Positions 1 through 38,177 of a stretch of DNA of 43,581 bases are shown piece after piece. Both the position numbers and the translations under genes were made by a program. The notes beneath the pieces are model-generated. The model was not told the DNA's origin. It did no database searches and was given only the letters and a program-made list of their open reading frames with translations. Origin of the DNA: Syntrophorhabdales bacterium. Its GTDB lineage: Bacteria > Desulfobacterota > Syntrophorhabdia > Syntrophorhabdales > WCHB1-27. The stretch spans positions 1 to 43,581 of the forward strand of contig DATKNH010000039.1 of NCBI GenBank assembly GCA_035541455.1. The letters are read 5' to 3'. Position 1 is the first letter of the stretch; the number at the start of each line of letters is the position of its first letter.

Positions 1-887
1 GAGAGAGATATGATTTTGTTGCCCAGCTTAAGGGCAAAATTCCGGCCGCTGAGATCGTAATTCTCCTGCACCTTCCCTATCCTCTCGACCCATTCATCAT
101 TCATCTGTTCGATGATCTTTTGATTCTCAGGCGTTATTGAATTCCACGTCTTTTTGTTCATGACCACGAAAAAGATCGTGGTATAGGCGGTACCAAAATT
201 CTCGGTCGTGTACTTGACCACTTCACCCCATTTGAATCCTTCCAGAGATGCAATCGGCGCGGTTGATCCGTCCGCAACGCCCTTACTGAGCGCATCATAC
301 GTGTCACCCATGGGCATGGCCACTGGCGTTGCCCCCAGGGCGGTCACTATCTTGGCGCCGAGTCCCGTGGTCCTGATCTTCATCCCCCTTAAGTCCTCCA
401 GCGTTCTCACCGGCTTCTTTGTGTGAAACAACTGTGGACCCGTCCCATGAAAGAACATGACCTTCACATCGTCCAACTCTTTCGGGTGAAACTTTTTATA
501 GACGGCATTGCTCAGCTTTGTGGCGGACATCGCGCTTTTATAGCCTAATGGCAGATCTGTTACCTCCATCAAAGGAAACCTGCCCCGTGTGTAACTGAGT
601 GCTGAAGACCCCATGGTCGAGATCCCTTTGACCACACCGTCGTAACACTTGTCCGCGGGAGTGAGTGTGGCGCCCGGGAACATGACCACTGTCACTCCTC
701 CCTTAGTTCTTTTCTCTGCCTCTTTTCCCCATTCGGCAAGGTTTTCAGTCACTGGATGACCGACAGGCCAGAAGTGAGAAAAGGTAAGTTTCACAGGTTT
801 TGTTTGAGCTATCGAAGAATGGACTAAAAAAACACACAGAATGCATGTAGCACACAGGACCAAAACTACCCGGCTTCCCGCTTTCAT
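1..887 (-). CDS. TRAP transporter solute-binding protein (DctP family), partial
   Basis: Periplasmic binding protein of a TRAP (sodium-driven) organic-acid importer. It is open at the left window edge, so only about 295 N-terminal residues are visible. The start ATG at 887-885 has a purine-rich AAGGGGG upstream. Translation gives a signal peptide (MKAGSRVVLVLCATCILC, then a hydrophobic stretch ending near SIAQ) followed by KLTFSHFWPVGHPV, typical of the mature DctP start. Further on, RTLEDLRGMKIRT and GVADGSTAPI match the conserved DctP region that includes the arginine which binds the substrate carboxylate. DctQ/DctM membrane subunits are not in the window and may lie further left. It follows the GntR regulator on the same strand, so it may be controlled with the molybdoenzyme operon. 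The family is clear; the ligand is unknown. Confidence 0.88.
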   Translation of the reverse strand, partial: MKAGSRVVLVLCATCILCVFLVHSSIAQTKPVKLTFSHFWPVGHPVTENLAEWGKEAEKRTKGGVTVVMFPGATLTPADKCYDGVVKGISTMGSSALSYTRGRFPLMEVTDLPLGYKSAMSATKLSNAVYKKFHPKELDDVKVMFFHGTGPQLFHTKKPVRTLEDLRGMKIRTTGLGAKIVTALGATPVAMPMGDTYDALSKGVADGSTAPIASLEGFKWGEVVKYTTENFGTAYTTIFFVVMNKKTWNSITPENQKIIEQMNDEWVERIGKVQENYDLSGRNFALKLGNKIISL

Positions 888-911
888 GGCGTACCCCCTT
901 TTTTTTTACGT

Positions 912-929
912 TTTCTTGTTTGCAAGAAA
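912..929. repeat. Perfect 7-bp inverted repeat upstream of the TRAP gene
   Basis: TTTCTTG and CAAGAAA are separated by TTTG, in the 120-bp gap between the GntR regulator and the TRAP binding protein. It lies about 25 bp upstream of the TRAP start codon. It could be an operator or a short mRNA hairpin. No T-run follows on either strand, so a classical terminator is unlikely. No strong promoter was recognised in this gap. Confidence 0.4.
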
Positions 930-1007
930 CCACATTGATGTACGTGAGAACCCTGGGTATATTCACCCCCTCTGTTGTACTGAAAACTCTTTCCTTGCCA
1001 TACCTCC

Positions 1008-1745
1008 CTAAATATTCTTGTCCTTGCGGGCCTGCGCTCTCAAATACTTCTTTCTCAGACGATTGTTCAAATCCTGGATATGCATTTTGTTAACCCGCTT
1101 AGCCTTTTCCAGGTCGCCGAATTCGAGGAGATCCACGATTTCTTTGTGAGCCTTGAATGCATTTTCACTGATTTTTTTATCCGGCGTTATCTTGAGCATC
1201 ATGTACCGCATCAGTTCGTTTATTGAGCGCAAGGTATCAGTCAAAATATAGTTTCCTGCTATTTTCGTGAGCATGACATGAAAGTTCCAGTTCTCGTCAA
1301 TTCTTTTCTTTTCGTCTCCCAGCCGCGAGAACTCCTCTGCCCTTTGTATCGACCCTCGCAGCATTTGGAAGTCCTTTTTTCTTGCTTTCTGCCCGACCAT
1401 TTCGATAATAATCGATTCGATCCAGAACCTTGCTTCCGCAAGTTGATCAATAGTGATGTTTCCGAGCTTCAGGTGATCAGAAAGACATTCCTTCAGTCTC
1501 TGCGGGGCGTCTGCTTTCTTTATAAAAGCCCCTCCCTTGGTTCCCTGTTTTATTACGACGAGACCTGACAGCTCCAATATTCGTAAAGCTTCTCTTACCG
1601 TAACGCGGCTGACCCCCAGCTCTTTTGCCAATCCTATTTCAGCGGGCAACTTGTCGCCCGGCTTTAACTTGTCCGACTCGATGGCTCCTTTAATCTCGTC
1701 GACAACTCTCTCAAAGACTCTTTTTCCTTTGACGTTATTGAACAT
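1008..1745 (-). CDS. GntR-family transcriptional regulator (FadR/FCD subfamily)
   Basis: One-component repressor or activator that responds to a small organic acid or related metabolite. Residues about 8-75 form the winged helix-turn-helix (VFERVVDEIKGAI, LKPGDKLPAE, ELGVSRVTVREALRILE), a textbook GntR head. Residues about 90-225 are the all-helical FCD ligand domain (EARFWIESIIIEM, NFHVMLTKIAGN, AHKEIVDLLEFGD), which usually holds a metal through Asp and His residues. Length 245 fits the family. It starts 43 bp after the NrfD gene on the same strand, so it probably ends the oxidoreductase operon or sits between it and the TRAP genes. The palindrome at 6357-6367 matches the FadR-type operator consensus and is a plausible target. 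Confidence 0.93.
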   Translation of the reverse strand: MFNNVKGKRVFERVVDEIKGAIESDKLKPGDKLPAEIGLAKELGVSRVTVREALRILELSGLVVIKQGTKGGAFIKKADAPQRLKECLSDHLKLGNITIDQLAEARFWIESIIIEMVGQKARKKDFQMLRGSIQRAEEFSRLGDEKKRIDENWNFHVMLTKIAGNYILTDTLRSINELMRYMMLKITPDKKISENAFKAHKEIVDLLEFGDLEKAKRVNKMHIQDLNNRLRKKYLRAQARKDKNI

Positions 1746-1788
1746 GTGTCCGCCCCGTCATATGATTGATAACCTCTCTCATCGAGTT

Positions 1789-2664
1789 CTAGGCTCCAGG
1801 CATCGGCACCAGTGGATTGTAGTAGCCGGCCTTCAGTATGAGGTACCTCAAGATCAGATCGCCAATCAGTTCGAACACCACGGAAAAATATAAGAGGGTG
1901 ACTGGAATTCCACTGATGCCTAAGACAAGGCTCGTGATGATTACCCCTATCGGCAGTACTATGCCAAACAAAATTACCCCTACCCAAAAAAGAGGCCACC
2001 ATTTCCCTTTGACTATTTCACTGACCGAGGTCCTTCCCGCTGCCAAGCCATACCTGGCAGTTATGAGATACGTTGGAAAAATGATAATGAACGCTGCAAG
2101 CAGAATTTTGATGAGATCTTCGAGCATGGCATTCCCCGGCCCACCTCTCTGCAGCTCGACCACCGCACTCAGTTCAGCGCCGCCCCATAGCCCTGCAACC
2201 GTGTAAAGCACCGGCAACAGTGCCGAATTCCAGAGCGGAATGCCGCGAATGTAGCTCATTGCAAATCCGCCATAGATGATTGCCAGGAAAGCCAGAACAT
2301 TGGTCACTACGAGCAGGACAACATTGGAGGCGGCCCAGAGAGACAAAGCCATATGAATGAAGCCTAACGTAAGAAAGCCGGTTACGAAGAGCAAGCCTCG
2401 AGAAATCCAGGACGTCTGTGGCCTGAGAATCATTCGATAGAATCTGAACGGATGCCCTAGGTAGACGAGATGAAACCCACCGCCTAAGACTGCACACATC
2501 AGCCAGCCAATGAATTCCCCGAAAAGATTTCCAAACAATGAAGAAACCAGGAAGGTCGCTGCGCCAAGCTCGATGAAGAAAAAGGCGATCCAGAAGAGGA
2601 TTCCGCGGCCATCTATCCATTCGGTCTGAGGTGTGGGCTTTACCATCCATTCATAGGCCTTCAT
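1789..2664 (-). CDS. NrfD/PsrC-type membrane subunit of molybdoenzyme complex
   Basis: Integral membrane quinone-interacting subunit expected to anchor the Fe-S protein and molybdenum subunit encoded upstream. It is a 291-residue hydrophobic protein with about eight predicted membrane helices, for example GILFWIAFFFIELGAATFLV and LLFVTGFLTLGFIHMALSLW. The early HLVYLGHPFRFYRMI segment, with a His and basic residues, is typical of NrfD-like proteins. No haem-ligand cytochrome b pattern was recognised. The ATG at 2664 is chosen over an upstream ATG at 2688 because AGGAGG lies about 8 bp before it. It is separated from the Fe-S gene by an unusually long 336-bp gap, but gene order (catalytic, Fe-S, NrfD) is standard for this enzyme class. 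Confidence 0.9.
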   Translation of the reverse strand: MKAYEWMVKPTPQTEWIDGRGILFWIAFFFIELGAATFLVSSLFGNLFGEFIGWLMCAVLGGGFHLVYLGHPFRFYRMILRPQTSWISRGLLFVTGFLTLGFIHMALSLWAASNVVLLVVTNVLAFLAIIYGGFAMSYIRGIPLWNSALLPVLYTVAGLWGGAELSAVVELQRGGPGNAMLEDLIKILLAAFIIIFPTYLITARYGLAAGRTSVSEIVKGKWWPLFWVGVILFGIVLPIGVIITSLVLGISGIPVTLLYFSVVFELIGDLILRYLILKAGYYNPLVPMPGA

Positions 2665-3000
2665 AGCTCCGTCCTCCTCTTGAATCATCGGGAACTGTCA
2701 AGATAATCAACTTTGGAACTACTTTTCGATCGCAGATAAAGTCGGATGAAAACCGAGATAAAAGCGGATAGTCATTCTTGGACCGGAGCTGTGATAAAGC
2801 GACATCTCGGGTCAACCTGCACACCTCCGGTGGGGGAAACAGGTCCTCGCCCGCCGCACGGCGGTAGGGTGTGGACAGCATTGGTGCAGTATCACAATGC
2901 TGGACACGAGCAACTCCATCCGTTTTCATCTCTTCTGTTCTTATCTGCGTGCATCTGTGACAAAAATTCTTTGTCCTTTTCATAAGTCTCTTGACGTGCC
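2665..3000. other. 336-bp intra-operon gap with degenerate inverted 'ATCTGCG' repeats
   Basis: No convincing gene is seen on either strand. Near one end (2731-2770, read on the minus strand) is ATCCGCTTTTATCTC followed later by TTATCTGCG. Near the other end (about 2918-2962, plus strand) is ATCCGTTTTCATCTC followed by TTATCTGCG and then ATCTGTG. The two copies face each other across roughly 150 bp. This resembles the degenerate ATCTGCG-unit intergenic repeats I recall from other environmental genomes. The middle is GC-rich with GCCGCACGGCGG near 2850. It may be an insertion that split the oxidoreductase operon. Confidence 0.45.
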
Positions 3001-3654
3001 CTATCGTAGAATGTAGTAAACAGAAGGGTCTGTGCCGAATTCCGGATGAAACTGTGATGCCTTCTTCTCTTTCATCAGGAGAGTAATTTCGCTATTCGGA
3101 TCATTGAGGTCACCGAAGTAACGCGCTTTAGCCGGACAGGCAATAACGCACGCCGGAGTCGCCTCGCGATCCACGCCGGGCACCAAGCCTTTTTTTATCC
3201 CGCTATCAATCCTTTCAATGCAAAAGTTGCACTTGAGCACACTCCCCTCCTGATGAGGGTATAACTCTCTGCCGATTATCTCCAATGGGGTAAGACCCTG
3301 ACCAGGGAAATATTCTCTCTTGTCGTCGGCGTAATAGGTTCTTGCCTGGTAGGGACAGGCCAGTACACAATATCTGCATCCCGCACATTTATCCGAATCA
3401 ACGGTTACTATGCCGTCCTCCCTCTGCACCGTAGCCCCGGTGGGGCATGCCTTCACGCACGCCGCATCTTCGCAGTGATTGCAGAGCACAGGATACGCCA
3501 CCTTTGAGATCGCGGCGTGGTGGCCTGTTTCACCGACCACCACCCTACCCCAGAAGATTCCCGGCGGCAAGAAGTGTTCTTGTTTACAGGCTAGGACGCA
3601 GGCGTAACAGCCTACGCATTTTTGCAGATTTATCACCATCCCCCAGCGAGCCAT
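3001..3654 (-). CDS. 4Fe-4S dicluster electron-transfer subunit (DmsB/PsrB/NrfC-like)
   Basis: Electron-wire subunit linking the molybdopterin catalytic subunit to the NrfD membrane protein. The 217-residue protein has all sixteen cysteines for four [4Fe-4S] clusters: C13/16/19/23 (CVGCYACVLAC), C58/61/66/70 (CNHCEDAACVKAC), C90/93/96/100 (CAGCRYCVLAC) and C142/145/169/173 (CNFC, then CVIAC). There is no signal peptide, which is usual for this family, where export relies on the catalytic partner's Tat signal. That partner also lacks one, so the complex is probably cytoplasmic-facing. The start ATG at 3654 has AAAGGAG upstream and lies 15 bp after the catalytic gene, so the two are co-transcribed. 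Confidence 0.95.
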   Translation of the reverse strand: MARWGMVINLQKCVGCYACVLACKQEHFLPPGIFWGRVVVGETGHHAAISKVAYPVLCNHCEDAACVKACPTGATVQREDGIVTVDSDKCAGCRYCVLACPYQARTYYADDKREYFPGQGLTPLEIIGRELYPHQEGSVLKCNFCIERIDSGIKKGLVPGVDREATPACVIACPAKARYFGDLNDPNSEITLLMKEKKASQFHPEFGTDPSVYYILR

Positions 3655-3669
3655 TGCGCAGACTCCTTT

Positions 3670-6279
3670 CTAATCTATTTTTCTCATTTTGATCCTTACT
3701 GCAGTCTCCATGTTAAAACTGACAGGGTCACAATGTTTCATGTCCAATTCCAGCAGTATGTCGAAATTCACGCCTTTACCCTTGGCGATGGGCATGCCTT
3801 TCGCCCAGTGGCCGGCACATGCCGCAATGCCCACTGCTTTCCTGTGTATGCCGGTCAACACCTTAAGCGGTCCCTCCACTTTGCGGCCTGTTTCGGTTTC
3901 CAATTCCACCAGGTCTCCGTCCTTCAGGCCCTTTTCTTTTGCGGTTTCGCTGTGCATCACGATGTTATAGGTATACGGGTTCATATGGGAGAGTTCGTCC
4001 AACCAGGGCTGCTCCATGGTGTGCGAGCCTGTATGGATGATATCACGATACGAGAAGCAGTACAGGTCATAGGCAGGATCCTTCGCGCGATGGACCGAAC
4101 AGGGTGTCCATGAAATGAACGGGGTGTACTGAGCAGTATCAAGATCGATGCCGAGTTTACCGGTGATCTCCCTTGTCTTCTCACCTATGTCGATCAAGTG
4201 CTCGAAATAGATCGGTGTTCTGCAGTCGGTGAAACACCTCCAGTAGGCTTCTTCTACCCTCTTGGGCCAGGTGATGAATCCATGCTTCTTAAACCATTCC
4301 CAGTCATGCTCAGGACCAAAAAGACTCTTTACCACCCTGTCGCACATCTCCAGTCGCGTGATTTTCTCACCCGGTTTGACCTTGTATTCATCACTGAGAC
4401 TGTACGCCTCATTCATGACCCCCATTAGCTGATCCCGTCTGCCTACCCTGTCCACCAATTCCCATAGAACATCCGGGAAATCTCTGCGTTCGTACATCGG
4501 ATCTACGACAGGTTGGGTAATGTGATACGCCCAGTCATCTTTGGCGAAGGGCAGACTGAACCCCATACCCGAGCCTGCGAAACAATCAGTTTGCTCTAGA
4601 TAACAGGTATCGGGCAGGAGTATATCGGCAAAGCCTTCTGCGAGTTCTGTTGAGAAGAGTTCGGAGACAACAATGAACGGTATCCTTTTGAGCGTTTCGG
4701 CAACGATCTCCCTGTTCGCTATGCTCAAAATGGTATTCGCGCCATAGGAAATCATCATTTCAATGCCACCCTTCAATCCGATCTTCTGCCACATCTCTTC
4801 CTGGTCGGACGAGGCAAGGAATGGTGAATGAAACATGGTCGCGAAGATATCATGGAGCGCCGGATCATCACCCCGAAACTCAGGCATTTTTGGGGGCCAC
4901 GGCGCTCCACCACTCCACGCGAAGGTAGGCCCGAACCGATCAACCGTGAGCATGCCATCTTTGCCCCTGCCGATGTGCATAGCCGGTTTCCCGGTCGTGG
5001 GGAAACCGAATGATTGTGGTGTCCATCCGACTGTGCCGCCCGGCACGTCTGCTGCGCCGACTATCTGATTGAGGAGAGCGACTGCACCACACGTGTGGTA
5101 GGAATTTTCGTGGCCCTCTCCCCCTCGAAAGAGAACCGCTGAAACGGGCCTGTAGGGGAGATTATGACCATCGATGGTTATCGTACTTCCGATGCTGGCC
5201 GCTTGTGCAAACTCAGTAGCGATACGCCGGATGCTTGCTGCAGGAACATCACTCACCTTGGAAGCCATCTCAGGGGTATACTTTTTGAGGTGCTCTTTTA
5301 CCAGTTGAAAAACCGGATGACATTTCTTCCCTTCGACGTCGTATTCCCCCTCCAGGGCAAAGTCGCCAATGGCGGTATCGTCATACTGCTTGGCTTTCGC
5401 CGCAACAGAATCCCACACGAGCGGCTCTCCGCTTGTTACATCCCGTACATACCGGCCATCTTGCCTTACAAGGTAAGGGGCATTTGTTTTCCACTTTAAA
5501 AACGTTTCATCATAGATCCTCAGATCATTCACGATCACGTTGCACATTGCCAATATAACGGCCCCATCCGTACCGGGGACTATGGGGAACCATTCCGTAG
5601 CCTTGCTGCTCGCAAAGTTACGCATCGGATCAAAGGCGACAAATTTCGTGCCCTGTGTTCGCGCCTCCGCAGCAAGCCTGATACATGTCGCTGCCGAGTG
5701 CCCCGAGCCACCACCCTTGTTAGCGCCGAAGTAGATCGCATACTTGCAGTACTTGAAATCAGGAACGATCGACCACGATCCGTGCACCATGCCTGCAACC
5801 AGATGCGCCCCTGCGCCGCAATGCAGGCCTCCGCCGCCCACAAAGCTGACCGGAGGGCCGAGGGTCCTCATAATGGGACGACTGTTGCCCCTCAGGTACG
5901 GTGCGCGGCAGGTGGTGGTCTGGTAGAAAAGCCTCTTCGGGTCTTTTTCTATGACGGCCTTAAGTTTGGTCGCAATCTCATCGAGGGCCTCATCCCACGT
6001 GATCTCTTTCCATTCGGGGTCAGCAAAGAGGCCTTTCTCAGGATTTGTCCTTTTCAGCGGAACGTTTAGACGATTAGGATCATACAGGACGTGGAGTCCG
6101 GACAGACCTTTGGCGCACGTTCCACCACGGCTGCCCTGTGTGGAGAGTGGCTGTCCCTCTATCTTGACTGCTACCCCGTTCACGCGGCGCACGCGTATTC
6201 CACAGGAACCGTAGCACCTGCCGCAGACCGTGGGTATCCAGGTATCTTCGTGCACTTGTTTTTGGCGCAATCCGTCCAT
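3670..6279 (-). CDS. Molybdopterin (bis-MGD) oxidoreductase catalytic subunit
   Basis: Large subunit of a DMSO-reductase-superfamily enzyme. At 869 residues it has the usual size. C19, C22, C26 and C55 (CGRCYGSC, then TCAKG) form the N-terminal [4Fe-4S] site. The region after it carries the usual domain pattern: EITWDEALDEIA, the GANKGGG dinucleotide-binding stretch, VAFDPM, and FADILLPDTCYLEQ. C154 in LHCGAGAHLVAG sits where thiosulfate/polysulfide reductases place their cysteine metal ligand (inference from motif position). The start at ATG 6279 has AAAGGAGGAAC upstream; an in-frame ATG at 6375 lies within the promoter. From 6279 no twin-arginine signal is present. Substrate is unknown: thiosulfate/polysulfide, an organic sulfur or nitrogen compound, or a hydroxylated organic acid are open options. 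The partner genes follow on the same strand. Confidence 0.92.
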   Translation of the reverse strand: MDGLRQKQVHEDTWIPTVCGRCYGSCGIRVRRVNGVAVKIEGQPLSTQGSRGGTCAKGLSGLHVLYDPNRLNVPLKRTNPEKGLFADPEWKEITWDEALDEIATKLKAVIEKDPKRLFYQTTTCRAPYLRGNSRPIMRTLGPPVSFVGGGGLHCGAGAHLVAGMVHGSWSIVPDFKYCKYAIYFGANKGGGSGHSAATCIRLAAEARTQGTKFVAFDPMRNFASSKATEWFPIVPGTDGAVILAMCNVIVNDLRIYDETFLKWKTNAPYLVRQDGRYVRDVTSGEPLVWDSVAAKAKQYDDTAIGDFALEGEYDVEGKKCHPVFQLVKEHLKKYTPEMASKVSDVPAASIRRIATEFAQAASIGSTITIDGHNLPYRPVSAVLFRGGEGHENSYHTCGAVALLNQIVGAADVPGGTVGWTPQSFGFPTTGKPAMHIGRGKDGMLTVDRFGPTFAWSGGAPWPPKMPEFRGDDPALHDIFATMFHSPFLASSDQEEMWQKIGLKGGIEMMISYGANTILSIANREIVAETLKRIPFIVVSELFSTELAEGFADILLPDTCYLEQTDCFAGSGMGFSLPFAKDDWAYHITQPVVDPMYERRDFPDVLWELVDRVGRRDQLMGVMNEAYSLSDEYKVKPGEKITRLEMCDRVVKSLFGPEHDWEWFKKHGFITWPKRVEEAYWRCFTDCRTPIYFEHLIDIGEKTREITGKLGIDLDTAQYTPFISWTPCSVHRAKDPAYDLYCFSYRDIIHTGSHTMEQPWLDELSHMNPYTYNIVMHSETAKEKGLKDGDLVELETETGRKVEGPLKVLTGIHRKAVGIAACAGHWAKGMPIAKGKGVNFDILLELDMKHCDPVSFNMETAVRIKMRKID

Positions 6280-6356
6280 TGTTCCTCCTTTCAACTTCTG
6301 CTCTCTCTTTGCAACGATAATAAGGTTAGGCGTCCTGCAATCCCCTTTTCGCCTAT

Positions 6357-6367
6357 ATGTCTGACAT
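6357..6367. promoter_or_regulatory. Candidate GntR/FadR-type operator overlapping the molybdoenzyme -10
   Basis: ATGTC-T-GACAT is a perfect palindrome that fits the FadR-subfamily pattern yGTM-N0-1-KACr (TGTC-T-GACA). It abuts and overlaps by one base the -10 box of the minus-strand promoter, a position suited to repression. A second ATGTC...GACAT pair, with a 6-nt centre, lies at 6396-6411 just upstream of the -35. The likely binder is the GntR protein encoded at 1008-1745. Confidence 0.55.
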
Positions 6368-6394
6368 TTATACATTAGTGTGCTCAGCTGTCAA
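6367..6394 (-). promoter_or_regulatory. Sigma-70-type promoter of the molybdoenzyme operon
   Basis: Read on the minus strand: TTGACA (6394-6389), a 16-bp spacer, then TATAAA (6372-6367). It is followed by the ATGTCTGACAT palindrome and then, about 80 bp on, the strong ribosome site of the catalytic subunit gene. A full -35 hexamer and five of six -10 bases make this a good candidate. Confidence 0.6.
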
Positions 6395-6446
6395 GATGTC
6401 TTTATTGACATAATCGGCGTAGCTCTGCACCTTAGAGTTAAGCATC

Positions 6447-6475
6447 CGTCCCTCATTTTCACGTCCCTCATTTTC
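6447..6475 (+). repeat. 14-nt direct repeat next to the M24-gene promoter
   Basis: CGTCCCTCATTTTC occurs twice (6447-6460 and 6462-6475), a period of 15 bp, and ends 1 bp before the -35 box at 6477. Direct repeats touching a -35 hexamer are a common arrangement for an activator site. The binding protein is unknown. Confidence 0.5.
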
Positions 6476-6476
6476 C

Positions 6477-6504
6477 TTGACAACTATTCGACCCAAAGTA
6501 TAGA
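6477..6504 (+). promoter_or_regulatory. Sigma-70-type promoter of the M24/DUF364 pair
   Basis: TTGACA (6477-6482), a 16-bp spacer and TATAGA (6499-6504). It lies about 70 bp upstream of the M24-family start codon. It is divergent from the molybdoenzyme promoter, and the two -35 boxes are about 80 bp apart, so both units could share regulators. Confidence 0.5.
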
Positions 6505-6576
6505 AATGAGCAACCAGGTAAAGACGTTTTCGACGTGCGGGAACAATATCTGCGTGCATAATAAGGAGGAGCTATC

Positions 6577-7770
6577 ATGGAAAACCCAAGAGAGCGGCTG
6601 ACACCGACGGTGTCCGATGCCGAACTTGAGCGAAGATGGAAAGCGGCCCGTGACGTTATGCGTGAGCACAAGATCGACTATCTCCTCATGCGGCAGGATG
6701 AGGAGTTCCTGGGCGGGTACATACGATGGTTCAGCGATTTTCCGGCAAGAGAAAGTTATCCGTTCACGGTAATTTTTCCCCTCGACGACGGGATGACCAC
6801 GATCGCCTGCGGCAACTATCCCCCGAGCGAGTACTTTCCTCCGCAATGGGCTGCGCGTGGCATTAAACAGAGATTGGGCGCGCCTTATTTCCCGTCGATG
6901 TATTACACAGGCACCATGGATGCGGAACTGGCCGTCGGCGTTTTAAAGGCAAAAAAACGCGCCACAATAGGCCTCGTCGGCAGAACGTCTATCCCCATTA
7001 CATTTTATGAATATGTAAGAAAACACCTGCCGGGCTATAAGTTCGTCGATGCAACCGACTACATCGATAATCTCAAAGCGGTCAAGAGTCCGGAGGAGAT
7101 CGGATTTATCAAAGAGACAGCCAGACTGCAGGATGAGGCTATGGAGCACGTCCGAAAATCTATCCGCCCGGGACTCAGGGATTGGGAGGTATTCGTCGAA
7201 GCGCAGTATGCGATGGCGAAACGAGGCAGCACGCGACAATTGATTCTTGTCGGCTCGAACCCCAAGGGCGTTGTCATCAGATGGCAGGTTCGCCACTTCC
7301 AGAACAGGATTATCAGGGAGGGGGACCAGATTAACGTGCTGATCGAAACCAACGGCCCTGGTGGTTTTTATACTGAGATAGGCAGAGTCTTTTCTCTAGG
7401 CAAGCCGGCGCAGGCGCTCGTAGATGCGATGGGATGCTGCATAGAAGCGCAGCAAGCGTCCTTAAGCGTTCTGAAGCCGGGGGCAGATCCAGGGGAGCTG
7501 TGGGAAATGAACAACGAATTTCTTCAGAAGAGAGGTTATCTTCCCGAGCGCCGGCTTTACGCCCACGGCCAGGGTTACGATCTCGTGGAAAGACCGGCCA
7601 TCAGACCTGACGAACCGATGAAGATCAAGGCCGGGATGAATTTGACCGTCCACCCGTGGGCTATTAACAGTGAGGCGTGGGCCGTTGTCACGGACAATTA
7701 TCTCGTTACCGAAACCGGTGTCAGCGAATGCCTGCACAAAACCCAAAAAGAGGTTATTGTTATTGATTAG
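6577..7770 (+). CDS. M24-family 'pita-bread' protein, creatinase-like, metal ligands lost
   Basis: 397 residues, the length of Xaa-Pro peptidase/creatinase proteins: an N-terminal creatinase_N domain (about 1-165) and a C-terminal pita-bread domain (about 175-390). KSPEEIGFIKETARLQDEAM is the classic entry to the second domain. The five metal-ligand positions of M24 peptidases (Asp, Asp, His, Glu, Glu) appear here as E257, E267, H330 (AHGQG), H359 (LTVHP) and T372, so a normal dimetal site cannot form. H240 in VRHFQNR aligns with the catalytic His of creatinase (HNPVTNR). It may therefore be a metal-independent C-N hydrolase or lyase on a small molecule rather than a peptidase (inference). 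AAGGAGG precedes the ATG. DUF364 follows after 23 bp. Fold is secure; function is not. Confidence 0.88.
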   Translation: MENPRERLTPTVSDAELERRWKAARDVMREHKIDYLLMRQDEEFLGGYIRWFSDFPARESYPFTVIFPLDDGMTTIACGNYPPSEYFPPQWAARGIKQRLGAPYFPSMYYTGTMDAELAVGVLKAKKRATIGLVGRTSIPITFYEYVRKHLPGYKFVDATDYIDNLKAVKSPEEIGFIKETARLQDEAMEHVRKSIRPGLRDWEVFVEAQYAMAKRGSTRQLILVGSNPKGVVIRWQVRHFQNRIIREGDQINVLIETNGPGGFYTEIGRVFSLGKPAQALVDAMGCCIEAQQASLSVLKPGADPGELWEMNNEFLQKRGYLPERRLYAHGQGYDLVERPAIRPDEPMKIKAGMNLTVHPWAINSEAWAVVTDNYLVTETGVSECLHKTQKEVIVID

Positions 7771-7793
7771 CGGATATGGGCGGGATGTGAGAG

Positions 7794-8618
7794 ATGACCA
7801 TTATCGAAGAGCTCATCAGGACGATGAAATCAACATTCCGGAGGAGAGATATTGTCGTTGAGGATATCCGCATGGGAGTCTTTTATACGGCAGTCAAACT
7901 TTGCACGGGAGATGCCGGCGTTGCGTTCACCCCTAGAGACCTGGCAGACACGGTCTGCTGCCCCCGCTCTGCAGCCAAAATGCCTGCTTCCGGAAGGCTA
8001 AAAGGAAAGAAAGCACTGGAGTTGATCAACCTTGCCGAGAGTGATAACAGTCTGCAACGCTCAATCGGCATAGCGGTCGTCAATGCGCTTTCGGCCGCAC
8101 TGATAAAGGAACAAGGCATAAGGGGCGCCCGCGTAAAGAAGGGTGCCGACGCACTGGACGTGGTGGAAATCGAAGACCGTGACAGACTCGTCATGATAGG
8201 AGCGTTCGTTCCTTTCATCAAAAAACTGAAGGGTAGGACGAATGCACTGTGTATCATAGATAAACATCCTCAGGCACTGAAAGAGGATGAGCGTCACTTC
8301 TGGCGCAGCCCCGCATCCATGAAAGGCGTAGTGAGAAAGGCTGACGTCGTGATCATAACAGGTTCCTCGATGGTCGAGGGCGGCCTGGATGAGATTCTTG
8401 CTGCGTGCACAATCGCAAGAGAGATTATACTGGCCGGTCCCACGGCCAGCATGTGGCCGGATCCCTTCTTTAAAAGAGGCGTCACTGTGATGGCCGGAAT
8501 CTCCATCAACGATGCGGACAAGCTGCTGCAGGTCGTGAGTGAGGGCGGGTCGGGTTATTTTTTCACCGGTTTCGCCCGAAAGATAGCCGTCGTCCGGGAC
8601 AAGCGGTCGGACGTGTAG
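7794..8618 (+). CDS. DUF364 (putative heavy-metal chelation) protein
   Basis: 274 residues with the DUF364 layout. The N-terminal part (about 1-90, DIRMGVFYTAVKL, LADTVCCPRS, RLKGKKALELINLA) resembles the DUF4213 half. The C-terminal Rossmann-like half (about 120-260) shows DRLVMIGAFVPFIKKL, ADVVIITGSSMVEGGLDEIL and IILAGPTASMWPDPFF. Family members have been proposed to bind metals or metal-cofactor intermediates, but the biochemical role is not established. It lies 23 bp after the M24 gene on the same strand and is presumably co-transcribed. Its position opposite a molybdenum enzyme operon makes a metal- or cofactor-related job conceivable, but that is a guess. Confidence 0.82.
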   Translation: MTIIEELIRTMKSTFRRRDIVVEDIRMGVFYTAVKLCTGDAGVAFTPRDLADTVCCPRSAAKMPASGRLKGKKALELINLAESDNSLQRSIGIAVVNALSAALIKEQGIRGARVKKGADALDVVEIEDRDRLVMIGAFVPFIKKLKGRTNALCIIDKHPQALKEDERHFWRSPASMKGVVRKADVVIITGSSMVEGGLDEILAACTIAREIILAGPTASMWPDPFFKRGVTVMAGISINDADKLLQVVSEGGSGYFFTGFARKIAVVRDKRSDV

Positions 8619-8818
8619 GTTACCGATAAATCCCAATTCCTCGCCCTCTTCTTCCTTACCCTCCGCACGAAACACTATCTGGAGAGGAGGCCATGCAATA
8701 ATCTATCTTATTGTGATACATTAATGCACTATAATATAGCAATATATAATATTTCAGTGTTTTACAGATGTTTTTGGATTAGCAGGGTATGTCTTTGCAG
8801 GATACGGTTGCCCGGAAG

Positions 8819-8846
8819 GCAGAGAGGGCTTCTGGGCCCCCTCTGC
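8819..8846. terminator. Hairpin between convergent DUF364 and Hsp20 genes
   Basis: GCAGAGAGGG (8819-8828) pairs with CCCCCTCTGC (8837-8846) in nine of ten positions across an 8-nt loop. It lies between the convergent stop codons at 8618 and 8858. There is no U-run on either strand, so it may be a weak or factor-assisted bidirectional terminator. The rest of the 8619-8857 gap is AT-rich around 8700-8770 and holds no gene that I can support. Confidence 0.45.
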
Positions 8847-8857
8847 TGTATCTTGCG

Positions 8858-9370
8858 CTACTTTGAGTTTACAGAGATCTTTTTCGTCTCTTCAATCGCC
8901 TTGGCCGTTTTTGGCAGCGTGATGTCGAGCACGCCCTTCTTAAACGTAGCCTCTGCCTTGTCCGTATCCACCTCTACGGGCAAAGGGATCGTACGCGTAA
9001 ATGAGCCATAGGTGCGTTCCATCCGGTAAAAATCTTTCCCTTTCTCTTCTGCCTCTCCCTTCTTTTCGCCTTTAATGGTCAGCGCCTCCCGGGTGAGGGA
9101 GAGATCTATATCCTTTTCTTCCATGCCCGGTAATTCAGCCGATACCTTAATCTCCTTTTCGGTTTCAGACACATCAACGCGGGGAGTGAACGCCGGGACA
9201 GAACTACCCTCCAGCGGTGCCCATGACGAAAGGCCAAATCCGCCGAAAAAGTTATCAAAGAGCCTATTCATCTCCCGCTGAAAGGACGCAAAAGGATGCT
9301 CCGACTCACGCCTCATATCAACCTGCGTTCCCGGTGTGCCTTTGTTTGCGACTTCCTTCTTTGTTGCCAT
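8858..9370 (-). CDS. Small heat-shock protein (Hsp20/alpha-crystallin), third of three
   Basis: ATP-independent holdase that binds unfolding proteins. Of 170 residues, about 1-50 form a variable N-terminal arm with FASFQREMNRLFDNFFGGFG, typical of bacterial Hsp20. Residues about 55-160 form the alpha-crystallin domain (TPRVDVSETEKEIKVSAELPG, KGVLDITLPKT). GGGAGGTGC precedes the ATG. It is the last gene of a three-gene Hsp20 run, 19 bp after the previous one. The C-terminal IXI-type anchor is not obvious; the protein ends EETKKISVNSK. Confidence 0.95.
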   Translation of the reverse strand: MATKKEVANKGTPGTQVDMRRESEHPFASFQREMNRLFDNFFGGFGLSSWAPLEGSSVPAFTPRVDVSETEKEIKVSAELPGMEEKDIDLSLTREALTIKGEKKGEAEEKGKDFYRMERTYGSFTRTIPLPVEVDTDKAEATFKKGVLDITLPKTAKAIEETKKISVNSK

Positions 9371-9389
9371 ACTGCACCTCCCTTACCTT

Positions 9390-9785
9390 CTAGCCGGCCT
9401 TTACGGTTATCTTCCTGGTTTGCGCTACTTTTGCCTTGGGCAGAACGAGTCTCAACACGCCCGTTTTGACCTTCGCCTCTATCTTTTCCCGATCGATCTC
9501 GTTGGAGATTGTAAAGCTGCGCTGGTAATCACCGATCCCGTACTCCGCATGCAGCAACTCGTGCTTCTCCGGGACCTCCGGCTCCACCCTTGCGTAGATG
9601 GTCAGCACGTCCTTCTCGAGGGTTATATCCACGTTAGACTCATCCGCCCCCGGGATATCGGCAAAAACAATAATCGCATCCTCCTTCTCCAGTATATCAA
9701 CGTCCGGCGTGTAGACGGTCGTCGAACGGGTACGCTCTACCTGAGCCTGCTCCTTATCCTGTATCTCTTTTGCCCCTTCTGCCAT
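9390..9785 (-). CDS. Small heat-shock protein (Hsp20), second of three
   Basis: 131 residues with a short N-terminal arm and an alpha-crystallin domain from about residue 28 (TPDVDILEKEDAIIVFADIPG) to the end (TGVLRLVLPKAKVAQTRKITV). The arm lacks the FxxFxxEMNRLF pattern seen in both neighbours, so it may form hetero-oligomers with them rather than a large assembly on its own (inference). The ribosome site GGAGGTG lies just before the ATG. Only 12 bp separate it from the upstream Hsp20 gene. Confidence 0.95.
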   Translation of the reverse strand: MAEGAKEIQDKEQAQVERTRSTTVYTPDVDILEKEDAIIVFADIPGADESNVDITLEKDVLTIYARVEPEVPEKHELLHAEYGIGDYQRSFTISNEIDREKIEAKVKTGVLRLVLPKAKVAQTRKITVKAG

Positions 9786-9797
9786 GAAAACACCTCC

Positions 9798-10244
9798 TTA
9801 CGCCGATTTTACCGTTATTTTCCTGGGTTTCTCTGCCTCCGATCTGGGCAGCCTTATTGTAAGGATGCCTTTGGCAAACCGCGCCTCGACCTTGCCTGCC
9901 TCGATCGTGAAGGGCAGTTCAATCGCCTTGCTGAATTTCCCGTACCAGCGTTCCCTCCGGTGGTATGACTCGCCTTCTTTGGCGCTCTCCGGCTCCCTGG
10001 AGCCGCGCACCGTGAGCGTGGATCCCGACACTGCTATGTCGATCGACTCAGGCTCGATACCCGGTATCTCGGTCGTCACAACTGCCTGGTCGGGCGTACC
10101 CCAAATGTTGAACGCGGGAAACTCGCTTGATGAGGGGTAAGCATATCGGGACAGCATCCGATTCATTTCCTTCTCCATGCGCTCCAGGTCCGTCCACGGA
10201 GAAGGCGCTCCTCCAAATCTCCCAAGGCCTGTGGTCCACAACAT
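9798..10244 (-). CDS. Small heat-shock protein (Hsp20), first of three
   Basis: 148 residues. The N-terminal arm WTDLERMEKEMNRMLSRYAY is followed by an alpha-crystallin domain at about 42-135 (FNIWGTPDQAVVTTEIPG, RRERWYGKFSKAIELP, KGILTIRLPRSE). AAGGAGG precedes the ATG. It is the promoter-proximal member of the run. The three proteins are clearly diverged in sequence, so this is an old duplication rather than a recent amplification. The trio probably buffers proteotoxic stress. Confidence 0.95.
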   Translation of the reverse strand: MLWTTGLGRFGGAPSPWTDLERMEKEMNRMLSRYAYPSSSEFPAFNIWGTPDQAVVTTEIPGIEPESIDIAVSGSTLTVRGSREPESAKEGESYHRRERWYGKFSKAIELPFTIEAGKVEARFAKGILTIRLPRSEAEKPRKITVKSA

Positions 10245-15333: not shown

Positions 15334-15378
15334 GCACGAATAGATTTCCGCAGGTAAGTCCGTGAAATCTATTCGTGC
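15334..15378. repeat. Perfect 15-bp inverted repeat upstream of the hydroxylase promoter
   Basis: GCACGAATAGATTTC (15334-15348) and GAAATCTATTCGTGC (15364-15378) are perfect reverse complements separated by 15 bp. The right arm ends 6 bp before the -35 box at 15385. It could be a two-site activator operator (45 bp overall) or a stable RNA hairpin. No T-run follows, so an intrinsic terminator is less likely. Confidence 0.8.
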
Positions 15379-15384
15379 AAAAGC

Positions 15385-15413
15385 TTGACAATCGGTGCCT
15401 GAAAGCAAACAAT
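15385..15413 (+). promoter_or_regulatory. Promoter of the molybdenum hydroxylase operon
   Basis: TTGACA (15385-15390), a 17-bp spacer and AACAAT (15408-15413, four of six). It is followed 30 bp later by the start codon of the small Fe-S subunit. The adjacent inverted repeat would place a regulator just upstream of RNA polymerase. Confidence 0.5.
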
Positions 15414-15443
15414 GGTTATAGAACTGCTTTTCGGAGGAACAAC

Positions 15444-16082
15444 ATGAAAAAGAAAGACACACCCGACGAGGATATAACAAAGCGGGGCCTGACGCGCAGG
15501 CAGTTTCTCACCACCATGGGTGTGGGCACTGCCGCCGTTGCTGTGTCCGGCTCACGTCCTGGTCACGCCGCGGAAGAAGAGGCTGTCATCAAGGCGGGCG
15601 AGATGACCAGGATCACCCTGAATATTAACGGGCGGCGTCACCGACTTATGGTCGAGCCTCGATGGTCCCTGCTCTTCCTCCTTCGCGAACGACTCGGACT
15701 GACCGGCACTAAAGTGGGCTGCGAGCGGGGCGAGTGCGGCGCCTGCACTGTGCTGATCAACGACGTACCGCGGTACGCCTGTCTGACCCTCGCGGTAGAA
15801 GCCGAGGGCGCAAGAATAACCACCGTCGAAGGTCTCATGAAAGGTGAAGAGTTGGGACCGGTGCAGCAGGCTTTCCTGGAAGAGGATGCCTTCCAGTGCG
15901 GCTACTGCACGCCAGGGCAGATCATGACAATCGAAGGACTTCTTCGCACAAAGCCTGACCCTGCCGTCGACGAGATCAGAACGGCTATGGGCGGCAATCT
16001 CTGCAGGTGCGGCACGTACACGCACATTCTTAACGCAGCGAAACGCGCCGCCGCCTTGAAGCGCAAGGCAGGAGGTGCGTGA
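15444..16082 (+). CDS. Periplasmic molybdenum hydroxylase, 2x[2Fe-2S] subunit (PaoA/YagT-like)
   Basis: Electron-transfer subunit of an aldehyde-oxidoreductase-type enzyme. Residues about 1-43 are a twin-arginine signal (LTRRQFLTTMG followed by a hydrophobic stretch), so the holoenzyme is exported folded. The plant-type [2Fe-2S] site uses C93, C98, C101 and C113 (CERGECGAC then YAC). The second uses C152, C155, C187 and C189 (CGYC, CRC). At 212 residues it is the normal length with a Tat leader, as in E. coli PaoA. CGGAGGAACAAC before ATG 15444 fixes the start; the frame is open to 15375. Its stop overlaps the start of the next gene. Confidence 0.93.
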   Translation: MKKKDTPDEDITKRGLTRRQFLTTMGVGTAAVAVSGSRPGHAAEEEAVIKAGEMTRITLNINGRRHRLMVEPRWSLLFLLRERLGLTGTKVGCERGECGACTVLINDVPRYACLTLAVEAEGARITTVEGLMKGEELGPVQQAFLEEDAFQCGYCTPGQIMTIEGLLRTKPDPAVDEIRTAMGGNLCRCGTYTHILNAAKRAAALKRKAGGA

Positions 16083-18385
16083 TGAGCGAAGAGATGCGCA
16101 AATCAGATCCGCCAAGACCCTGGGGCACCACCACGATCATTGGCAAACGCATACCGCGTGTTGATGCTTACGAACGCGTGAGCGGTTCTGCCGTATATCC
16201 TTCGGATGTCACTTTCCCGGATATGCTTTACGGAGCGGTCCTCCGCTGCCCGTGGCCTAACGCCCGCGTTGTGAGCGTAGACACAAGCGACGCCGAGAAG
16301 GTGGAAGGTGTATACGCAGTGATTTCCGGTCGGACTCCTGAGGCAGATATTCTGTGGCCCTACTCCAAAGAGATATCCATGAAACTCTTTGATCCCGTCT
16401 GTCGTTATGAGGGCGAGCCCGTTGCAGCCGTTGCGGCCGCAACTCCCTACCAGGCCTGGGATGCTGCCCTCGCTGTAAAGGCACAATACGAACGACTGCC
16501 CTTCCTGGCGGATGAGCGCAAAGCGCTCGACGATGGGGCGCCGCGGGTGCATGAGATCGGCAACCGCGTCACCCCGATCCAGACCTACGAGAGGGGAAAT
16601 ATCGAGAGAGGTTTCGCCGAAGCCGATGTCGTGCTGGAAGAGACGTACAGGACAGAGTGCGAGATCCACACGCCCATGGAGTTGCACGGATGCGTGGCCA
16701 AATGGGAACGCGACCGCCTCACTATCTGGGAATCAACGCAGGGTGTGTATGCCGTTCAGTCGAAGGTGGCTGAGGTTCTTGGGCTTCCGCTCTCCAAGGT
16801 CCGGGTCATAGGCCATTACATGGGGGGAGCCTTCGGCAGCAAGCTGCAGCCGGGGAAGTACACCATCATAGCCGCGCTGCTGGCAAAGATCACGGCACGG
16901 CCGGTCAAACTCTTTCTCACAAGGGAAGAAACATTCCTGGCTGTTGGAAATCGTCCTCCTGCGAATATGCGAATCAGGGCTGGAGTAAAGAGGGACGGCC
17001 GGCTCACAGCGCTTCATTTTTCGGACCTCGGGACAGGAGGCGCCTATCCGGCCGGCGGCACAGCATTTGTGGATTGGCTGGCTAAAGACCTTTATGCATG
17101 CCCAAACGTTAAGACAGAATTGAGCGACGTGTATATAAACGCGGGTCCTTCGCGCCCCTTCCGTGCTCCCGGCCATCCGCAGGGCGCCTGGGCTCTCGAG
17201 CAGATGATGGATGCACTGGCCGAGGCGATCAAGATGGACCCTGTGGAAATGCGACTCAAGAACATCCCTCTGCACAGCCAGGCGCGCCAGGGCAATCCAC
17301 CCTACACGACCACAGGATTGAGGGAGTGCCTTGTTGAAGGAGCAAAGGCCTTCAAGTGGCAGGAAGCGCGACAAAGAGCAAAAGAAAGCAGGCACCACAG
17401 TCACCTGTGCAGAGGTGTTGGGGCGGCCAGCGCCTTATGGGTGGTGGGCTCTGGACGGCCGCCTTCTACTGTGCTTGTGAAGCTCTTTGCCGACGGCAGC
17501 GCCAATCTGAACATGGGCGCCAGCGACATCGGCACCGGCACTAAGACGGTTATGGCCATGGTGGTGGCAGAGGAATTGGGTGTGAAACCCGAAGCCATCC
17601 AGATCGAGAATGCGGATACAGGCACCACCCAGTACGCGACGCCAAGCGGCGGAAGCAAGACCGTGCCTACGGAAGCGCCGGCTGTAAGAGCAGCTTCTCT
17701 GTCGGTCAAGGAGCAGCTGCTTGCCTTGGCCGCGCAGGACCTTAAAACAGAGGCCTCTGCGCTCGCGCTGAGAGACGGCGAAATCATCTCTGCTGCAGAT
17801 TCGTCAAAAAGGATAAAGATCAGCGATGTGACCGGGCTCAAGGAACAGGGAGTGCTGGTAGGCATCGGTTACCGTGGGCCGAATCCCGCAGATAAAATAA
17901 CGTGCCCTTTTTCCGCACAGTTCTGCGAAGTGGAGGTAGATACCAAGACTGGAGAGGTGAAGATACTGCGTTTCCTGGGTACCAACGAGAGCGGGAGGGT
18001 GATGGACGCATTGACCTACGATAATCAGGTGTTCGGCGGGATCACCATGGGGATCGGCCTCGCAATGACAGAAGCACGCGTCCTCGACGTCGCGCAGACA
18101 GGAAAGATGCTCAACCGCAACTGGCATGACTACAAGATCCCGACGGCGCTCGACGTGCCGCCGGAGATGGTCTCGGTGCCTCTGAATCTGCCTGATGCCG
18201 AAGCCAACACCACGGGTGCCAAGGGACTGGGTGAACCGGTCACGATCCCCACTGCGGCCGCTGTAGCCAATGCTATTTACAATGCCACCGGCGTGCGTGT
18301 CACCACCTCATGCATGACACCCGTGCACTTGTGTGAACTCTTTGCCAGAACCAAACAGACCGGTAAAGAGAAAAAGGAGGGGTAA
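16082..18385 (+). CDS. Molybdenum hydroxylase large, Mo-cofactor-binding subunit (PaoC/YagR-like)
   Basis: 767 residues, xanthine-oxidase family. Residues about 20-130 are the aldehyde-oxidase a/b hammerhead domain (GSAVYPSDVTFPDMLYGAVL, RCPWPNARVVSVD). The rest binds the molybdenum cofactor: GGAFGSK from residue 248, PFRAPGHPQGAWALEQMMD, ASDIGTGTKT, and near the C-terminus KGLGEPVT with E718, the conserved catalytic Glu. It has no signal and would be exported with its Tat-bearing partner. The start ATG 16082 overlaps the upstream stop; GGAGGT lies 5 bp before it. Physiological substrate is unknown; aromatic aldehydes are the best guess by analogy with PaoABC. Confidence 0.92.
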   Translation: MSEEMRKSDPPRPWGTTTIIGKRIPRVDAYERVSGSAVYPSDVTFPDMLYGAVLRCPWPNARVVSVDTSDAEKVEGVYAVISGRTPEADILWPYSKEISMKLFDPVCRYEGEPVAAVAAATPYQAWDAALAVKAQYERLPFLADERKALDDGAPRVHEIGNRVTPIQTYERGNIERGFAEADVVLEETYRTECEIHTPMELHGCVAKWERDRLTIWESTQGVYAVQSKVAEVLGLPLSKVRVIGHYMGGAFGSKLQPGKYTIIAALLAKITARPVKLFLTREETFLAVGNRPPANMRIRAGVKRDGRLTALHFSDLGTGGAYPAGGTAFVDWLAKDLYACPNVKTELSDVYINAGPSRPFRAPGHPQGAWALEQMMDALAEAIKMDPVEMRLKNIPLHSQARQGNPPYTTTGLRECLVEGAKAFKWQEARQRAKESRHHSHLCRGVGAASALWVVGSGRPPSTVLVKLFADGSANLNMGASDIGTGTKTVMAMVVAEELGVKPEAIQIENADTGTTQYATPSGGSKTVPTEAPAVRAASLSVKEQLLALAAQDLKTEASALALRDGEIISAADSSKRIKISDVTGLKEQGVLVGIGYRGPNPADKITCPFSAQFCEVEVDTKTGEVKILRFLGTNESGRVMDALTYDNQVFGGITMGIGLAMTEARVLDVAQTGKMLNRNWHDYKIPTALDVPPEMVSVPLNLPDAEANTTGAKGLGEPVTIPTAAAVANAIYNATGVRVTTSCMTPVHLCELFARTKQTGKEKKEG

Positions 18386-18389
18386 GAGT

Positions 18390-19361
18390 ATGCTGCCCGC
18401 TTTTGACTATGTCCGTCCGAAATCCTTACCAGATGTTTTCAAGTACCTCAGCCGCGGCGCGAGAGTGCAGGCTGGAGGCACCGACCTTTTGGGGTGCCTC
18501 CGCGACCGCGTCTTTCAAGTGTCTGCGGTCGTGAGCCTGAGCAACGTAAAGGAACTGCGAGGCATAACAGAGACAGGGAGCGGTCTGCGCATCGGCGCGC
18601 TCACAACTATCAGCGAGATTGCTGCGAGCCAGGTCATCCGCAGTCAGTACCCTGCTCTGGCACAGGCAGCCATGGAAGTCGCAAGTCCCCAGTTGAGAAA
18701 TCAGGGAACGGTAGGCGGCAATCTCTGCCAGAAGCCCCGCTGCTGGTATTACCGCGGCGAGTTTCAGTGCCTGCGCAAGGGCGGGCAAACCTGTTTTGCC
18801 GTTGTGGGAGAAAACCAGTATCACTGCATACTCGGCGGCGATGGCTGCTACATCGTGCATCCTTCGGACACTGCGCCGGCGTTGATAGCGCTGGGCGCAA
18901 CACTACGTGTTGCGGGAGCAGCAGGAACAAGGGAAGTGGCGATCGAAGAGTTTTTCGTGCCTCCCGCAAAGGATCCAACGCGTGAGACAATACTGGAGCC
19001 TGGAGAGATCATCACCGACATCCTCCTGGCGCCACCACAAAAAGGTCTGCGCAGTTCTTACCGCAAAGTGAGGGCGCGGCGCTCGTGGGACTTTGCCCTG
19101 GCGAGTCTCGCTCTTGCGGTCTCGCTCACCGGAGGACGGGTAACGACCGCGAGAGTCTTACTGGGAGGCGCCGCACCCGTGCCCTGGCGCTCCAGGGAGA
19201 CCGAGGAACTGATCACCGGCAAACAACTCGATGCCGCTACTATCGAAAAAGCAGCTCGGACAGCAATCAACAAGGCTCAGCCCATGGAGCACAACGAGTA
19301 TAAACTGGCCCTCTTCCGAGGGCTTATCGAGGAACAATTGCAGGCGATACGTGCTACCTAG
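18390..19361 (+). CDS. Molybdenum hydroxylase FAD subunit with extra [4Fe-4S] site (PaoB/YagS-like)
   Basis: 323 residues with a PCMH-type FAD domain (VQAGGTDLLGCLRD, RIGALTTISEIA, NQGTVGGNLCQ) and a CO-dehydrogenase flavoprotein C-terminal domain (about 220-320). Between them a cysteine-rich insert has C118 (KPRCWYYR), C127, C135, C146 and C153 (GGDGCYIVHPSD). This matches the [4Fe-4S]-binding insert of E. coli PaoB rather than the plain CoxM type. GGAGGGG lies before ATG 18390, 4 bp after the large-subunit stop. Order here is Fe-S, Mo, FAD, unlike the Fe-S, FAD, Mo of E. coli. No MocA- or PaoD-like maturation gene is adjacent. It ends convergently with the next gene, overlapping by 4 bp. 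Confidence 0.92.
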   Translation: MLPAFDYVRPKSLPDVFKYLSRGARVQAGGTDLLGCLRDRVFQVSAVVSLSNVKELRGITETGSGLRIGALTTISEIAASQVIRSQYPALAQAAMEVASPQLRNQGTVGGNLCQKPRCWYYRGEFQCLRKGGQTCFAVVGENQYHCILGGDGCYIVHPSDTAPALIALGATLRVAGAAGTREVAIEEFFVPPAKDPTRETILEPGEIITDILLAPPQKGLRSSYRKVRARRSWDFALASLALAVSLTGGRVTTARVLLGGAAPVPWRSRETEELITGKQLDAATIEKAARTAINKAQPMEHNEYKLALFRGLIEEQLQAIRAT

Positions 19362-32013: not shown

Positions 32014-32043
32014 AAAGAACACCTCCTCAATCGCGCAAAGATT

Positions 32044-33243: not shown

Positions 33244-33251
33244 TCGACTCT

Positions 33252-33959
33252 TCACACCGCCAGGTATTCCTGCTCTATCTCAGGTCTCGCCTGCAGTTCT
33301 GCAGGAGTGCCCTCAAATACCATCGCGCCCTTGTTAATCACGTACATGTAATCGGCGACGTCCATCGCCAGCGGCAGGTTCTGCTCGGCCAGCAATATGG
33401 AAGCGCCCTCTTTTCTCAGCTGTTTTATAACGCCACCGACCTCCTGGATGACCATGGGCGCTAATCCTTCCGATGGCTCGTCCATAAGGATGAGCTCAGG
33501 GTTGGAAACCAAGGCCCGCGCGATAGCAAGCATCTGCTGCTCGCCACCGCTTAATTGATTGCCCTTGTTGGACAGCCTCTTGCCCAGCACCGGAAAAAGG
33601 GAAAGAACACGCTCAATGTTCCAGGCTCCCTTCCTGCCGCGCTCTCCTGCTGCTATTGCAAGATTCTCCCTGACTGTCAGCGATGGAAATATCCGGCGGC
33701 CCTGTGGCACTAAGGCCAGTCCCCTTCGGGCTATCTCAAACGCCGTGAGTCCCCTGATCTCCTCGCCCCGGAAAAGAATCTTGCCCCGGCGCGCAGGCGT
33801 GAACCCCATTACCGAACGTATCGCGGTCGTCTTGCCCATACCATTACGGCCGACGACAGAGACTACGGATGACGAGGCAACCTTCAAGGAAAGGCCCTGC
33901 AGAACGTAGCTTTCCCCGTAGTAGGTATGGATATCTTCGACAGTAAGAATATCGCTCAT
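33252..33959 (-). CDS. livF: Branched-chain-type ABC importer ATPase (LivF)
   Basis: 235 residues, the LivF length. It has Walker A GRNGMGKTT, the signature LSGGEQQMLAIARAL, Walker B LILMDEPSEGLAP and the switch His region, with the LivF-typical VPQGRRIFPSLTV. It pairs with the LivG ATPase, whose stop overlaps its start by 4 bp (ATGA). The importer may carry an aromatic or other carboxylate rather than amino acids, given the operon. Confidence 0.94.
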   Translation of the reverse strand: MSDILTVEDIHTYYGESYVLQGLSLKVASSSVVSVVGRNGMGKTTAIRSVMGFTPARRGKILFRGEEIRGLTAFEIARRGLALVPQGRRIFPSLTVRENLAIAAGERGRKGAWNIERVLSLFPVLGKRLSNKGNQLSGGEQQMLAIARALVSNPELILMDEPSEGLAPMVIQEVGGVIKQLRKEGASILLAEQNLPLAMDVADYMYVINKGAMVFEGTPAELQARPEIEQEYLAV

Positions 33960-36522: not shown

Positions 36523-36564
36523 GGATTCCCGTCACCTGATCTTAATGTTCTGTGACACCGTTCA

Positions 36565-38007: not shown

Positions 38008-38177
38008 TTTGTTTTCCCCCTTCTCTTTGAGACAGACCTTGAGCTTGCCACACCCCCGCAATCATTGCATTCGCTGCCTTTCTCGCAATTGATGCGGGCT
38101 CAAGCAATGAGCAAGGCGGCGCGCGCAGGGCCTAAGCGTGCGGAGAACAGCTACCGGGATTCACGCTCAGCGCAGTT

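Follow-up and report, generated by a model that had tools for sequence, protein, structure and literature searches.

To our knowledge, alpha-oxidation by PadBCD, the phenylacetyl-CoA:acceptor oxidoreductase of Thauera and Aromatoleum, has been characterised mainly for phenylacetate and in denitrifiers. The enzyme joins a molybdenum subunit to an iron-sulfur (FeS) subunit and an NrfD-type membrane anchor, has no export signal, and stands second in the Pad pathway, where a CoA ligase precedes it and decarboxylation by PadEFGHI follows (PMC5109826). Creatinase and the ectoine hydrolase DoeA are proteins of M24 fold with a creatinase-like N-terminal domain and a broken dinuclear metal site; in the phloroglucinol pathway of Clostridium scatologenes, the ring is opened by a protein of the 'cyclase' family (PMC10470551).

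The stretch of DNA that was analysed (the window; 43,581 nucleotides) is an entire contig, C39, of a draft Syntrophorhabdales genome of 3.9 Mb in 173 contigs. Domain matches placed there every component that the original prediction had listed: a three-subunit molybdoenzyme, a creatinase-like M24 protein, a DUF364 protein, an FCD-family regulator and a TRAP binding protein. The minus strand carries, in this order, the catalytic molybdenum (Mo) subunit of the DMSO reductase family (3670-6279), a PadC-like 4Fe-4S electron-transfer subunit (3001-3654), a non-coding gap, an NrfD/PsrC-type, PadD-like membrane anchor (1789-2688; PF03916), a GntR regulator of the FCD family (1008-1745; PF00392 and PF07729) and the TRAP transporter solute-binding protein DctP (3-887; PF03480, E 3.6e-46). 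Because window and contig coincide, the contig end truncates the TRAP gene at position 3, and the remaining transporter lies beyond view. On the plus strand, the M24 gene (6577-7770; PF00557 and PF01321) is probably co-transcribed with the gene of the DUF4213-DUF364 protein (7794-8618; PF04016, E 9e-40), which starts 23 bp 3' of it in the same direction. The longest Mo frame reaches 6375; the likely start is 6279, where there is a good ribosome site, AAAGGAGGAACAATG, and this start leaves a divergent region of 297 bp between the Mo complex and M24 (6280-6576). The first 9 kb hold neither a CoA ligase nor a 2-oxoacid oxidoreductase, the locus being truncated at the contig end, and an Rfam scan of positions 1-9000 gave no match. 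The gap between the FeS and NrfD genes measures 312 bp (2689-3000), as against 3-20 bp in relatives; by blastn among the loci it is partly a dispersed intergenic repeat, with pieces 70-76% identical to non-coding DNA near the genome's other two PadB-type Mo genes, on contigs C69 and C71 (L052, L053). Downstream of the locus, three mutually homologous small heat-shock-like genes lie in tandem (8858-10244).

A palindrome between dctP and gntR (912-929; TTTCTTGTTTGCAAGAAA) is a possible GntR operator, and the FCD-GntR regulator probably senses the imported acid. The matching regulatory sites once described around the divergent promoter did not withstand comparison: nothing in the divergent region between Mo and M24 matches the palindrome, palindrome-like sites occur in the window at chance level (25 found, 19 expected), and the eight 14-mers common to intergenic stretches are near chance, five shuffles having given 0-7.

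The molybdenum complex and its relatives

Against NCBIfam, the Mo subunit has distant matches only, the top one being PhsA (237 bits, cut-off 694). In a tree with PhsA-like, ArrA-like, ArxA, DmsA, TorA and NapA outgroup rows (a further row, L136, was ignored for its very long branch, probably a wrong-strand frame), the window Mo falls into a 14-row clade with support of 99/99, together with the two other PadB-type enzymes that are paired with M24 and the enzymes in the PadB position of two PadEFGHI clusters; PhsA, ArrA, DmsA, TorA and NapA lie outside. The PadB position was assigned by context, not by assay, as the Mo-FeS-NrfD set that follows a PadEFGHI cluster whose PadI exceeds the curated NCBIfam cut-off (genome G212, L113). 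The node uniting the window group with PadB alone has support of 92/87. On these two nodes, the Mo-FeS-NrfD set is best called a PadBCD-type complex, and the view that no pathway combines such genes had overlooked PadBCD, which likewise consists of Mo, FeS and membrane-anchor subunits and has a CoA ester as substrate. Identity between the window Mo and PadB of the G212 Pad cluster is only ~32% (44% for the FeS subunits), so that phenylacetyl-CoA itself need not be the substrate here. The window further differs from the Pad system in having M24 and GntR/TRAP genes, and PadEFGHI is not adjacent.

Homologues of the Mo subunit at E<1e-150 occur in 8 of 345 genomes of the phylum, the host included. 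The closest relative, in a genome of the same order (G036), shares 59% identity in Mo, 69% in FeS and 52% in NrfD. Its operon (G036:C63, L066) runs from TAXI/TRAP parts through Mo, FeS and NrfD to the gamma, delta, alpha and PadI-like subunits of a 2-oxoacid:acceptor oxidoreductase resembling PadEFGI, with gaps of 1-63 bp and a CoA ligase upstream. This content follows the same logic as the Pad pathway, and the combination of acid transporter, four-gene 2-oxoacid oxidoreductase and CoA ligase suggests that an acyl-CoA is oxidised in the cytoplasm, at its alpha position, to a 2-oxoacid, with quinone as electron acceptor. In a second genome (G136, L071), TRAP QMP genes run directly into Mo-FeS-NrfD, and a gene of the CoA ligase family lies ~5 kb upstream. 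PadEFGHI linkage was seen in G212, where a Mo-FeS-NrfD set comes after the PadEFGHI genes, and in G289; the host's own PadEFGHI-like genes are on a separate contig, C13 (PadI 408 bits, cut-off 700), in one row with GntR and a TRAP DctP (L122, 5281-11938). A related Mo-FeS-NrfD-TorD set, also cytoplasmic, is found on a plasmid of Sporomusa termitida together with genes for a sodium:solute symporter and a GntR regulator (L086, 10157-15365).

The direction in which the complex runs was also considered. It might work reductively, as a quinol-fed reductase (such as a reductive dehydroxylase or a PhsA/PsrA-like sulfur reductase) respiring a phenolic acid that is imported and freed from a conjugate by M24. 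NrfD complexes are able to work in both directions, gut catechol dehydroxylases include membrane-bound Mo-FeS-anchor enzymes (PMC7028382), and PhsA is, for all its low score, the best NCBIfam match. We nevertheless consider this reading improbable: the tree sets the window Mo apart from PhsA, DmsA and TorA, the homologues' operons with 2-oxoacid oxidoreductase and nearby CoA ligases suit oxidation, and the Tat motif, which the membrane-bound dehydroxylases of E. lenta have, is absent from the N-termini of both the Mo and the FeS proteins. The same absence lets the cytoplasmic-facing orientation of the original prediction stand, as a prediction. A thiosulfate reductase in particular is not indicated, the protein lying below the curated PhsA score and outside the group of DmsA and the PhsA-like reference L130, a row that is itself below the PhsA cut-off (625 bits). 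Transhydroxylase and acetylene hydratase were rejected as identities of the Mo enzyme, the former not being among the PDB matches and the latter a weak match.

The M24 protein and its pairing with molybdenum enzymes

At the columns of the E. coli methionine aminopeptidase (MetAP) metal ligands, which we take to be D97, D108, H171, E204 and E235, the window M24 has L255, E267, H330, H359 and T372, so that the canonical D-D-H-E-E set of M24 metallopeptidases is not present. Nearly all members of its subfamily share the pattern L or M, E, H, H and then C, T or W; at the column of MetAP His79, the histidine is replaced by Q, D, M, L or others. The description of the protein as metal-free thus captures the loss of the canonical site (L255, T372), but is not established as such, since E267, H330 and H359 are retained and, to judge from the alignment, could still hold a single metal. 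The resemblance to DoeA extends to the M24 fold, the creatinase-like N-terminal domain and the broken dinuclear site; in contrast to DoeA, the window protein retains E267/H330/H359, and it lacks the histidine at the His79 column, is 25% identical, lies distant in the tree and scores 66 bits with the DoeA NCBIfam model (cut-off 613). An AlphaFold model from three sequences reached a mean pLDDT of 52, with the active site not resolved, and was of no use for interpretation. These genomes also encode a second M24 group, distant from the first, in which Q-H-H stands in place of E-H-H at the kept metal positions (L050, 6432-7565; L054, 1295-2386; L067, 7293-8384).

Members of the subfamily at E<1e-70 were found in only 5 of 395 genomes of the phylum, and the M24 search of genome contigs returned two relatives only. 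The host encodes seven close copies (44-100% identical) plus one distant copy, and a same-genus genome has a comparable number. By our own count, an oxidoreductase lies at most two genes away in ~15 of the 20 Desulfobacterota copies; the partners comprise D-2-hydroxyacid dehydrogenases, lactate/malate-type, isocitrate-type and SDR enzymes and Mo complexes, and the transporters nearby vary likewise (TRAP, TTT, Liv ABC, NMT1-type ABC). Relatives on alphaproteobacterial plasmids have similarly varied oxidoreductase and transporter neighbours. Some copies, on the host's contig C24 and on Aminobacter and Pacificitalea plasmids, resemble the C. scatologenes phloroglucinol pathway in lying near BKACE, SDR and Liv transporter genes, the C24 BKACE being triacetate-lyase-like (385 bits, cut-off 430). 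At two loci (L048, 13148-14089, with the 385-bit copy; L057, 6335-7270), a BKACE close to the 3,5-dioxohexanoate cleavage enzyme stands beside an M24 copy, SDR, ALDH and Liv transporters, a possible phloroglucinol-type pathway in which the known cyclohydrolase is not nearby. A role of M24 as dihydrophloroglucinol cyclohydrolase was rejected because the known enzyme is of the 'cyclase' family and Aminobacter has both; the first 9 kb of the window contain no genes of the C. scatologenes pathway.

The five genes had been taken as one possible module of M24, DUF364, Mo enzyme, GntR and TRAP, and the five-part set does not recur: DUF364 adjoins M24 in none of the relatives, whose DUF364 homologues are all at other sites, the 85% identical M24 orthologue of the same genus adjoins a TctC (TTT receptor) gene with no Mo gene alongside, and other relatives of the window Mo complex in the phylum occur without M24. 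What does recur, when neighbourhoods are compared for a conserved M24-DUF364-molybdoenzyme block, is the M24-Mo part, in places with a transporter, at two further loci. In genome G022 (contig C15, L064), the genes DctP-DctQ-DctM-M24-Mo-FeS-NrfD-TorD form an operon with gaps of -4 to 111 bp; on the host's contig C69 (L052), ABC genes, M24 and a binding protein share an operon with Mo-FeS-NrfD-TorD. Between these two loci, the Mo proteins are 83% identical, as against 31% in comparison with the window Mo, and the accompanying M24 proteins fall into a clade separate from that of the window M24, from which the pairing of M24 with PadB-type enzymes seems to have arisen at least twice. A DMSO-reductase-family gene of any kind lies within ~8.5 kb of 7 of the 20 M24 loci, where roughly 2 would be expected from density by our own arithmetic.

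These counts bear on the possibility that the window joins mere neighbours, with a PadBCD-type operon under joint regulation with GntR/TRAP lying by chance next to an M24-DUF364 operon to which it is unrelated, and the two having only a divergent intergenic region in common. In the window, M24 points away from the Mo genes and is joined to DUF364, the two units have no regulatory motif in common, and the same-genus orthologue does without a Mo neighbour. In the phylum sample, most PadB-type loci are without M24 and most M24 loci without a PadB-type enzyme. Against chance proximity stands the second locus type, where M24 and a PadB-type Mo enzyme are paired independently and within the same operon. 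Two such pairings in one genome would have a chance probability of ~1e-4 to 1e-3, a rough figure (three PadB-type copies, six M24 loci, 3.9 Mb) that is optimistic because both families cluster in catabolic regions. Chance proximity is, in our estimate, a real but minority possibility. The Mo-M24 pairing looks like an undescribed route for dismantling organic acids; the open-access literature held no relevant reports that combine M24 with TRAP, molybdopterin or aromatics.

Proposed pathway and host

Gene content, membership of the PadB-type clade, operon linkage in homologues and the host's Oah form the observed basis of the reading that we favour, with rather better than even confidence: that the locus serves carboxylic-acid catabolism, by PadBCD-type alpha-oxidation and a separate M24 hydrolase, in an aromatic-degrading anaerobe. 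TRAP would import an acid, and a ligase encoded elsewhere would activate it with CoA. The cytoplasmic PadBCD-type complex would then oxidise the alpha-carbon of an (aryl)acetyl-CoA-like thioester to give a 2-oxoacid, with electrons passing via NrfD to quinone; the C13 2-oxoacid oxidoreductase would decarboxylate the 2-oxoacid to an acyl-CoA shorter by one carbon, which could enter the benzoyl-CoA route. M24 would act as a separate hydrolase before or after alpha-oxidation, releasing or cleaving the acid; it belongs to a subfamily that pairs with interchangeable oxidoreductases (D-2-hydroxyacid, lactate/malate-type, isocitrate-type, SDR, Mo) and acid transporters. DUF364 is assigned no role. 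We infer the redox direction, the M24 reaction, the substrate and the role of GntR, while gene linkage in relatives argues for the joining of transporter with Mo complex, of Mo complex with 2-oxoacid oxidoreductase and of M24 with Mo complex. The broader reading first offered for these genes, acid import followed by bond cleavage and a redox step, gains support from the two further M24-Mo loci and from Oah.

The candidate activating enzyme is an AMP-dependent CoA ligase on the same contig (30433-32022, minus strand; PF00501, E 8e-63), with a putative link to the Mo locus. It belongs to a group of genes (30433-38061) with an MFS transporter, Liv ABC parts and a UbiD-family decarboxylase, likely a second aromatic-acid module on the contig, which also carries a three-gene set for a xanthine-oxidase-family molybdenum hydroxylase (15375-19361). 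The genome encodes Oah, a hydrolase of the benzoyl-CoA pathway, above its cut-off. Such gene content fits anaerobic degradation of aromatic acids, and the host is probably an anaerobe that degrades aromatic compounds; a sister genome bears the annotation Syntrophobacterales MAG, isolate Chersky.21_67.

A bolder and more tentative extension, to which we give well under even chances, takes the M24 subfamily for a new class of hydrolases that open or deconjugate aromatic or alicyclic acids at a mononuclear Glu-His-His metal site. Cleavage by M24 and then quinone-linked alpha-oxidation by the PadBCD-type complex would make up an undescribed anaerobic pathway, and a single genome would reuse its M24 hub with several transporters and dehydrogenases. 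If the proposals made here are true, the diversification of the PadBCD clade among uncultured Desulfobacterota, in company with acid importers and sometimes with M24, would widen the anaerobic routes for aromatic and polyphenol-derived acids in soils and sediments, and an M24 family misannotated as 'metallopeptidase' would gain a testable function.
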